This document shows, piece by piece, positions 737 through 3,452 of a DNA stretch of 64,000 nucleotides. The DNA is taken from assembly GCA_018052705.1 (NCBI GenBank), contig JAGPMW010000011.1, forward strand, positions 1-64,000, in the 5' to 3' direction. This DNA comes from Selenomonas sp. (GTDB lineage Bacteria > Bacillota > Negativicutes > Selenomonadales > Selenomonadaceae). Numbering within the stretch: position 1 is the first letter of the stretch; each line of letters begins with the position of its first letter. Made by a program: the position numbers and the translations under genes. The notes beneath the pieces were generated by a model. That model ran no database searches. It was given only the letters and a program-made list of their open reading frames with translations, and was not told where the DNA came from.

Positions 737-1561
737 TTACTCCTCTTTATTCAAGGCCTCGTTCATGCTGCCGGTCCGATAACCGATGAGATCCAGTGTA
801 ACATAGTCAAAACCCAGAGCGCGGAACTTCGCTGCAACATCTGCCCGGATATCCGCCGTCATAAACCGGTCAATATCGGCTGGCAGAAGTTCAATACGGG
901 CCAGACTGTCATGCTGACGAACGCGGAACTGCGTAAAGCCTTTTGCCTGCAGGAGTTCTTCCGCCACATTGATCCGCTGCAGATTCTCAGGGGTCAATTC
1001 CTCACCATAGACGAACCGGGATGCAAGACAGGCAAACGAGGGCTTGCTCCAGGTTGCAAGCCCTAATTCGCGTGACAAGTCGCGAATATCCTGCTTCGTA
1101 AAGCCTGCCTGATGCAAGGGGCTCTTAATATCCAGTTCCCCCAGAGCCTTGCGTCCGGGGCGATAGTCACCATCATCGTCAAGATTCGTACCATCCACAA
1201 CGGCCGCCAGCCCCAGCTGCCCCGCCATTTCCTTGAACTGGCTGAACAGGGCATATTTGCAGAGATAGCAGCGATTGGTCGGGTTAAATCGGATGCCATC
1301 GATCCCCAAGGTGTCAAACTTCTTGATTATATGATGCACGCCTTCTTTCTCGCAGAATTCCCGAGCCTCGGCTACATCCCGTTCCGGTACAAAAACCGAA
1401 CTGGCCGTAAAGGCAGTCACTCCATCCCCCAGGGTATCATGTGCCACTTTCAGCAAAAAGGTAGAATCCACCCCGCCCGAAAAAGCAACAGCAACAGCCC
1501 CCAGCTCCTGCAGATACGCCTTCAAATCCAACAATTTCTCATGAATCTCTTTTGCCATCAT
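737..1561 (-). CDS. larE: LarE, ATP-dependent pyridinium dicarboxylate sulfur transferase
   Basis: LarE inserts sulfur into the pincer precursor of the nickel cofactor of lactate racemase. The N-terminal PP-loop FSGGVDST binds ATP. Three cysteines (CYLC around residues 98-101 and the C in SFACLASR near 178) match the LarE subtype proposed to hold a [4Fe-4S] cluster, rather than the single-cysteine sacrificial type of Lactobacillus plantarum. The start is placed at the ATG at 1561, which has AGGA 9 bases upstream; an ATG six codons earlier lacks a good site. No larA, larB or larC is nearby, so the partner may be encoded elsewhere. Some LarE-like PP-loop enzymes have unknown roles. Confidence 0.85.
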   Translation of the reverse strand: MMAKEIHEKLLDLKAYLQELGAVAVAFSGGVDSTFLLKVAHDTLGDGVTAFTASSVFVPERDVAEAREFCEKEGVHHIIKKFDTLGIDGIRFNPTNRCYLCKYALFSQFKEMAGQLGLAAVVDGTNLDDDGDYRPGRKALGELDIKSPLHQAGFTKQDIRDLSRELGLATWSKPSFACLASRFVYGEELTPENLQRINVAEELLQAKGFTQFRVRQHDSLARIELLPADIDRFMTADIRADVAAKFRALGFDYVTLDLIGYRTGSMNEALNKEE

Positions 1562-1598
1562 ACTCACCAATCCTATCATACAACTATGTTTTATTTAT

Positions 1599-1629
1599 AT
1601 TGTATCACTGAAAGTATACTCCAAGTCAA
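1599..1629 (-). promoter_or_regulatory. Putative sigma-70 promoter of larE-nudix
   Basis: On the minus strand TTGACT (1624-1629) and TACAAT (1599-1604) are separated by 19 bases, longer than the ideal 17. The transcript would start about 30 bases upstream of larE, which separates this unit from the structured region at 1700-2210. Confidence 0.4.
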
Positions 1630-1699
1630 GTATAAACAGAAACTTGCAGGACTGTTTGCTGAAATTAGAAACAAGTTACGAGTAGATCAAGGCTCAGCA

Positions 1700-2210
1700 C
1701 GGGGCTCGGTAAAACTATTTTTTTCGCCTTGCACTAAATGTCCCGCCCTGTCCAAACGTACGGATTTAGTTTACGCGCCGGTACCACGGCGCCGCAACGA
1801 ATCGACGGACCTTGATAATACCTACGGCGTGCCAGCCTGCGGCAAGTCGTTCCAGACGAAAAAAATAGTTTCCCCTCACCCGCCGTCAATTGATTGCGGC
1901 TGCTGTAAAGTTCTCGTTCTATTGGCCGGTCGAGGTTCAATTCGAGCAGATTTGTTAAATCTTAACATCCATGAAGGAAACAGTCCCTAGCTGCATCGAG
2001 CCCAGCCGCGGGGACAGCGCATAGGCATAAGTGGAGCTTTGGTGTTCTGCGTTAAGAAGAATTTTTTTGCCTACTGCTGATCGTTTCAAAAGAGCGTCCG
2101 TTCAAACGAAGTGCGTTTAGCTGCTTTTGGAATGCTTAATTGAAAGGCAAAAAAAGTCTTTAGCAGGTTACCTAGGCGGAACGTTGGCTATGCGCTGTCC
2201 CCACGGCGGT
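1700..2210 (-). ncRNA. Candidate large structured non-coding RNA, family unknown
   Basis: The 650-bp gap between larE and apbE has no protein gene with family similarity. It holds two nested structures. Unit 1: 19-bp arms at 2006-2024 and 2188-2206 with one C/A mismatch on the plus strand that becomes G-U on the minus strand; inside it lies a second pairing in which TTTTTTTGCCT (about 2061-2072) matches AGGCAAAAAAA (about 2144-2155). Unit 2: 1708-1726 pairs with 1857-1875 (17 of 19), enclosing hairpins GCGCCG/CGGCGC (1775-1792), ACTAAAT/ATTTAGT (1733-1770), TGCC/GGCA (1830-1844) and TCGT/ACGA (1848-1860). The wobble pattern favours the minus strand. Unit 1 alone has the length and rod shape of 6S RNA, but I recognise no conserved motif. 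Confidence 0.4.
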
Positions 2211-2236
2211 CTTATTTCTGCATTTTCCCTTTTATC

Positions 2237-3283
2237 TTACTCGACGGGAAATTCTTCATTGCGTTCAGTCAATTGATCTTCAAAGCCCCGAACCGGGTGC
2301 AGATGCTGCTGTTGATCGACAATCATTCCCGTAATTCCTGCGGGCAGCTGCTCCATAAATTGCTGCCCTTTCTCCGGCCCCAATACAAAGACTGCCGTCG
2401 TCAAGAGATCTGACAACATCCCGGCATCTTCTACGCTGCCATCGATAACAATCGTATCTCCCATCACGCCAGTCCATGCCGGTGCTCCCGTCTGTGGATC
2501 AAGAATATGATGATAGCGCCGCCCATCCTGCTCAAAGAAACGCTCATAATCGCCTGATGTTGACAATGCCTGATCCGAAATCGGCACCACCGCAAGCACT
2601 GCGTCTTTATCCTCACTGCGTGGATGACGAATACCGATGCGCCAGTCCTTGCCTTTATCATTCTTCCCCAACGCATAGATTGAACTTGCTCCGAGATTGA
2701 TCAGTCCATCCTTAATCCCATGCTTCAGATAAATCTTGCGTACCTCATCCAAGGCCATTCCCTTGGCAATCCCGCCAAAATCCAAACTCATGCCGGCCTG
2801 CATTAAGCGGGCACTATGCGTCTCGGGCTGCAGCTCGACTTTCTGCCATCCGGTCAGTGACTTCGCTGCCGTAATCTCCTCTGCCGAGGGTACATGTGCC
2901 TTATCCGTACCAATCCCCCAGAGGTTCACCAGTGGCCCCATTGTCACATCCCAGGCACCACCAGTAAGCTGCGAATACTGTTGTGATACCTCCAGCATAT
3001 GATAAATCTCCGGGTGTAACGGTACCCACGCACCGGTTCCAGCGGCTGCTGACAACTTGCAGACATCACTGCCCTCGATGTTGGGGCTGGCCATTGCCTC
3101 AAGCTCTTTAAGACGTTTCATACTTTCGCTTACAGCTGCTTCCGATTCCCTGCCAGTCGCAGACAGCGTAGCCACCGTATCCATCACGGTCATTGTCTGC
3201 CGTGCCGAAGGCTCTGAACCACAGCCAGCAACCAATACCATCACTGCCAGCAGTACCGCCCCAAACCCACTCTTTGCTTTCAT
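2237..3283 (-). CDS. apbE: FAD:protein FMN transferase (ApbE), lipoprotein
   Basis: ApbE attaches FMN to Thr/Ser of target flavoproteins (Rnf, Nqr subunits, fumarate-reductase-like enzymes) outside the cytoplasmic membrane. The N-terminus has a lipoprotein signal with lipobox VAGC (Cys21), followed by the ApbE landmarks TVMDTVATLSATG, LDFGGIAKGMALD and DGLINLGASSIYALG, and the late segment DAGMLSDLLTTAVFVLG. The 348-residue length is normal. The start at 3283 is supported by GGAG 11 bases upstream; an in-frame ATG 20 codons earlier would spoil the signal peptide. It appears to be monocistronic, and no target flavoprotein lies beside it. Confidence 0.9.
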   Translation of the reverse strand: MKAKSGFGAVLLAVMVLVAGCGSEPSARQTMTVMDTVATLSATGRESEAAVSESMKRLKELEAMASPNIEGSDVCKLSAAAGTGAWVPLHPEIYHMLEVSQQYSQLTGGAWDVTMGPLVNLWGIGTDKAHVPSAEEITAAKSLTGWQKVELQPETHSARLMQAGMSLDFGGIAKGMALDEVRKIYLKHGIKDGLINLGASSIYALGKNDKGKDWRIGIRHPRSEDKDAVLAVVPISDQALSTSGDYERFFEQDGRRYHHILDPQTGAPAWTGVMGDTIVIDGSVEDAGMLSDLLTTAVFVLGPEKGQQFMEQLPAGITGMIVDQQQHLHPVRGFEDQLTERNEEFPVE

Positions 3284-3452
3284 CTTTGCTTCACTCTCCA
3301 GTCTGTTTGGAGCTATTATACCATAGAACAACAATTCACACATGGCAGCAGGAATTTGTTCGCCTTGCGGCGAAATTCTATTTTATAGAAAATTCTCACG
3401 GTAATTCCCAATTCAGACCTGACTAAATAAATCCGAAAAAGGATGTGATTCT

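Follow-up and report, generated by a model that had tools for sequence, protein, structure and literature searches.

In a 64,000-nt window of Selenomonas sp. DNA, the gene-free block between apbE and larE is probably a non-autonomous mobile DNA element which bears a long palindrome and behaves like a BIME or a MITE, while falling outside the definition of a REP. The block was inserted at this junction and its palindrome, unit 1, is dispersed through related genomes, where the arms covary with near-perfect Watson-Crick pairing and the tip and internal loops are conserved. Unit 1 belongs to an apparently undescribed family of ~200-bp palindromes in Selenomonas and related genomes, with no Rfam entry and no mention in the literature searched. 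The features are listed in Table 1.

Table 1. Features of the apbE-larE region (window positions and strand)
Feature	Position	Strand	Basis
Whole inserted non-coding element, 606 bp, from the apbE stop to the larE upstream region	1631-2236	-	
apbE, upstream gene	2237-3343	-	tblastn synteny
larE, downstream gene, normally abutting apbE	737-1579	-	tblastn synteny
Left terminal inverted repeat TATAAACAGAAACTTGCAG, degenerate	1631-1649	+	14/19 to G015 consensus GATAAACTGGAAGTTACAG
Right terminal inverted repeat GATAAAAGGGAAAATGCAG, degenerate, adjoining the apbE stop	2218-2236	-	14/19 to G015 terminal repeat, 13/19 to the left one
Promoter-like TTGACT-19-TACAAT, just outside the element, before larE	1599-1629	-	Sequence inspection
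Unit 1, long imperfect palindrome (stems P1-P4, internal loops, tip)	2003-2209	-	Covariance model R1 match, 173.6 bits
P1 outer stem, 5' arm	2185-2207	-	
P1 outer stem, 3' arm	2005-2027	-	
P3 (T-run/A-run stem), 5' arm	2145-2160	-	Covarying in relatives
P3 (T-run/A-run stem), 3' arm	2057-2072	-	
Tip AAACGCACTTCGTTTGAACG, variant of conserved AAACGCGCTTCGCTTGRACG	2099-2118	-	Unit alignment and tip scan
Unit 2 region	1700-1905	-	Sequence conservation confined to the window species and G015

Insertion between apbE and larE

The larE-apbE junction was compared across 22 genomes of the genus, with the gap measured by tblastn. The window species has a gap of 658 nt and its sister species (G015) one of 818 nt, against -3 to +9 nt (abutting or overlapping) in the other congeners with a readable junction; among the readable junctions, only those two species carry the block. 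The block is therefore not an ancestral RNA gene of this gap, as the other readable congeners have an intact apbE-larE junction without it. The ends are set by the G015 copies, which are bounded by GATAAACTGGAAGTTACAG and its complement; in that genome this terminal repeat occurs only at elements. The degenerate versions kept in the window delimit the element to 1631-2236, with no gap between it and the stop codon of apbE.

The promoter-like sequence in front of larE has a counterpart in G015 (TTGACT-19-TATAAT). Its 19-nt spacing falls outside the range of the promoter scan and the motif was read by eye. It suggests that larE may have regained a putative promoter of its own after being separated from apbE. 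A related-locus scan queried with LarE returned no match.

Stems of the window block

The original prediction was of a large RNA made of two tandem units, each closed by a long stem. Both closing stems are present, with 18 of 19 positions paired in 2006-2024/2188-2206 and 17 of 19 in 1708-1726/1857-1875, as are GCGCCG (1775-1780) and CGGCGC (1787-1792), and the block was correctly read as gene-free. When 1700-2210 was shuffled 200 times with dinucleotides preserved, no stem as good as 17/19 arose, so the inverted repeats exceed chance. Folding of 1600-2236 gives a minimum free energy below that of shuffles by 4.4 sd for the minus strand and by 5.0 sd for the plus strand. The three mismatches in the two stems had been expected to become G-U pairs on the minus strand, which holds for two, the third being A-G. 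The absence of a known RNA family was borne out: Rfam matches none in the block, whether at gathering cut-offs or with the threshold relaxed to E=10, and a search of the relatives' units matched no family either.

In relatives, covariation is very strong for unit 1 and absent for unit 2. The latter, present only in the window species and G015, is not supported as a covarying fold: no stem in it covaries, the closing stem is lost from copy to copy, and copies with differing left and right arms are mixed. One ~35-nt stretch of it, GCGCCGGTACCACGGCGCCGCAACGAATCGACGGA (within 1771-1810), hardly differs between these two species, although their neighbouring genes are ~75% identical.

Distribution and architecture of unit 1

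A query with 1600-2236 found eight further partial matches in the window's own genome and at least 14 copies in G015 (77-84% identity). Near-identical copies occur in G010, G018, G019, and G013. In these four and in G001 many copies lie at contig ends, as expected of high-copy repeats. The R1 covariance model detected units in 21 of the 22 genus genomes, G008 having no match, and patchily in 34 of 91 family genomes (11 of 30 genera); some loci in these counts were counted on both strands because the unit is nearly symmetrical.

The architecture was derived from an alignment of 21 diverse units. From the outside inwards it consists of P1 (~20 bp), an internal loop AACGCTYCGC / GCTYCRCTTATG with related motifs on both sides, P2, a loop CTAAA / TTCTTAACG, P3 with its T-run and A-run, a further loop, P4, and the tip AAACGCGCTTCGCTTGRACG. 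The internal loops and the 20-nt tip are common to the units, conserved and non-complementary. In the stems 36 of 46 pairs change on both sides. The covariation score is 0.655, against 0.181 for shuffled alignments and at most 0.136 with slid partners; the covariation cells are non-independent events and the structure comes from the same alignment. In one locus (L027:1214-1425) the tip is inverted (CGTTCAAGCGAAGCGCGTT) between intact P4 arms, which amounts to a DNA inversion inside the hairpin.

Intermediates between paired states are few: alignment A1 has 239 double changes but only 7 G-U and 24 A-C cells. Such a pattern would also arise if replication template-switching copied one arm from the other (quasi-palindrome correction), since an arm rewritten from its partner stays complementary without any function, and the covariation would then not reflect selection. 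Central deletions and the tip inversion likewise speak of palindrome instability. This explanation is nevertheless very improbable: the exact tip recurs on unrelated stems, and the conservation of internal loops and tip, which are non-complementary, means that sequence is selected there.

Unit 1 stems are nearly free of G-U pairs

Across 95 distinct units (3392 pair cells), 95.7% of cells are Watson-Crick. On the canonical strand, which is the minus strand in the window, 21 cells are G-U (0.6%) and 81 are A-C (2.4%). The control, RNase P of these genomes folded to an RNAalifold consensus of its own, shows 9.5% G-U and 0.8% A-C. In a test for G-U use preferred over A-C on the transcribed strand unit 1 fails on the canonical strand, and the opposite strand does mildly better. 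A transcript under selection should tolerate G-U; with the wobble and its mirror both rare, the arms change together. Such joint change is compatible with a DNA palindrome, with a structure required on both strands, or with one arm being corrected from the other in replication, and the near-absence of G-U points to maintained DNA arms rather than RNA. G-U at the imperfect positions had been offered as a sign of transcript selection, which does not carry over to the family, where the long stems are almost without G-U on either strand.

The opposite strand (window plus) has the lower RNAalifold energy (-69.5, against -61.7 for the canonical strand). It carries purine-rich loops, the tip motif GCGAAGC, a stable DNA minihairpin, and one pair that is G-U in 19 of 21 units. 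If one strand folds, these models make the window plus strand the likelier, the opposite of the minus strand named in the original prediction. The energy difference and the G-U pair count against the mobile-element interpretation. They belong with the alternative that unit 1 forms a family of structured RNAs, either 3'-UTR or antisense, that mobile elements have dispersed and that is selected as a transcript, possibly from the GCGAAGC strand, an alternative to which the very strong covariation, the conserved internal loops and tip, and the position of units close behind genes, with single ones sense-oriented, also lend weight. It is unlikely given long stems that are near G-U-free on either strand where RNase P has 9.5%, insertion at an operon junction that lacks the block in other species, and no Rfam relative. 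An RNA role of unit 1 is thus lowered. As for the large RNA predicted in the window, its structure, gene-freeness, missing Rfam match, and unit 1 covariation stand, while the inserted nature of the block, the scarcity of G-U in the stems, and the lack of covariation in unit 2 tell against it.

The tip sequence outside the genus

The exact tip 20-mer is found in at least 120 stretches of GTDB genomes, where by estimate about one would be expected by chance. Among the matches listed, carriers include Selenomonas, Centipeda, and Mitsuokella, and further rumen Lachnospiraceae, Eubacterium, Blautia, Bacteroidales, and one Woykebacteria contig; most of these listed loci are palindromes with unrelated stems around the tip. 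The median folding z is -8.8 for 39 tip loci outside the core Selenomonas set, and the Bacteroidales and Woykebacteria loci are weak (z -0.5 to -2.3). Many tip loci are on MAG contigs, so misbinning is possible. Allowing up to one mismatch, the tip is present in 3 of 398 evenly sampled genomes of the phylum, all from the same family as the window species, and its occurrence outside the family is therefore sporadic. The viral contigs scanned contained no tip, and phage and plasmid collections held nothing similar to the window DNA; on these two grounds a phage or plasmid origin was rejected. A literature search for the tip sequence found no paper.

A speculative extension is that the tip defines a superfamily of palindromes whose stems diverge freely, with AAACGCGCTTCGCTTGRACG and the internal loops read by one horizontally spread enzyme, a new mobility mechanism acting on folded DNA. 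Its range would be Selenomonadaceae, rumen Lachnospiraceae/Clostridia, Bacteroidales, and possibly CPR bacteria. The superfamily and this range together are a tentative proposal, somewhat doubtful at present.

Carriers and genomic placement

Units are carried between terminal repeats that are lineage-specific: GATAAACTGGAAGTTACAG in G015; AAATTRCAGTTTGTRGG in G010, G018, and G019, with two inverted units inside; and GGGGCTGTAACGAAATA in G024, where centre-deleted derivatives of 99-160 bp also occur. In the copies read from G010/G018/G019, G015, and G024, no target-site duplication was recognised by eye. No transposase ORF recurs at terminal-repeat matches in G015 or G024, the assemblies of which are incomplete, and none was found inside elements.

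The Y1/RAYT domain PF01797 is absent from G001, G010, G011, G012, and G015. Mobilisation by RAYT/Y1 was rejected since several unit-rich genomes lack this domain. An autonomous copy with a gene between units or between terminal repeats was also considered and rejected: the Centipeda and L159 units flank housekeeping genes only, no recurrent mobile gene was recognised near 80 tip loci, and none was present at the G015 and G024 terminal repeats. The mobile-element interpretation is weakened by these results, namely by the lack of a recognised target-site duplication and of an autonomous copy or transposase found via the terminal repeats, and by the missing Y1/RAYT family in several unit-rich genomes.

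The gaps which hold units are mostly tandem (37) or convergent (18), with 4 divergent, and inverted pairs of units are common. Single units of G011 and G024 mostly lie 24-80 nt past a stop codon in the sense orientation of the gene, with genes called there from long ORFs only. Simple insertion does not predict this arrangement, which is a further point against a mobile element. In the single-contig G011 the canonical strands look balanced by eye with respect to replication, so a lagging-strand element is not favoured.

Placement behind stop codons in tandem and convergent gaps is shared with REPs (PMC3733652), and together with the frequent inverted pairs it would suit a two-way barrier used by the host, such as a transcription insulator, an mRNA 3'-end protector, or a supercoil or gyrase site. 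A barrier of this kind must work on both strands, so neither G-U nor A-C would be tolerated. The idea is improbable: most copies read lack a T-run after the stem, many species and G008 manage without the unit, and a selfish element would likewise persist mainly behind genes.

Proposed mechanism and relation to known systems

Under the preferred mobile-element interpretation, an element with degenerate terminal inverted repeats would have entered the genome of the ancestor shared by the window species and G015, landing directly behind the stop codon of apbE and separating this gene from larE. The unit 1 family is dispersed through Selenomonadaceae, in some places singly and in others as inverted pairs within elements whose terminal repeats differ by lineage. 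Mobilisation would take place in trans with the DNA hairpin as substrate: a recombinase or DNA-binding protein may recognise the hairpin, extruded or single-stranded, through its tip, the presumed recognition site, and through the internal loops. The stems would need only complementarity.

Units resemble REP/BIME/REPIN systems with TnpA-REP (RAYT) in being dispersed extragenic palindromes, often in inverted pairs and mostly behind genes, with a short motif kept while stems vary. However, a unit is ~200 bp long instead of 20-40 bp, has other conserved motifs in place of a GTAG/CGTC tag as the common feature, and abounds in several genomes without Y1 transposase genes. Bacterial MITEs (ERIC/RU, Correia, bcr-type) are likewise short, non-coding, dispersed, polymorphic, intergenic, and flanked by terminal inverted repeats, but here the terminal repeats around one and the same palindrome are unrelated from lineage to lineage, and in the copies and ends examined no target duplication was seen and no parent insertion sequence was found.

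Integron attC sites are imperfect palindromes with unpaired conserved bases, in which structure matters more than stem sequence and the tips vary. Compared with this general description, the unit shares the imperfect palindrome, the unpaired conserved bases, and the greater weight of structure over stem sequence, but is longer, has a conserved tip sequence, and was seen with no integrase or cassette array. Large structured RNAs (6S, OLE, ROOL, GOLLD, raiA) are similar in size, multi-stem fold, and lack of coding capacity; they differ from the unit, which is multi-copy, mobile, almost G-U-free in its stems, and without an Rfam match up to E=10.

If the interpretation is right, many Selenomonas genomes owe some of their intergenic DNA to this family, which is then an unusual example of strong covariation in something other than RNA. 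Covariation surveys could use the lack of G-U as a simple check for telling DNA palindromes apart from RNA genes. With so little variation, the tip is a concrete bait with which to look for the protein that recognises it.

Additional repeats near the elements

One ~294-bp element of G015 (L318:1501-1794) retains both terminal repeats and has no unit tip, which marks it as an internal deletion derivative. Several elements have a second palindromic repeat, AAGCCTTCCCC...GGGGAAGGTGCCCC...GGGGCGGATGAGGT, next to or within them (L017:1400-1450; L019:1705-1752; the spacers of L010 and L055-L060). In G018 and G019 an outer repeat, AAAGGGRCTGTGAAA ... TTTCACAGCCC, encloses several elements (flanks of L063, L069, L071, L064, and L028), and this outer repeat also holds a terminator-like hairpin, AGCCTCCATAAGTTA/TAACTTATGGAGGCT.
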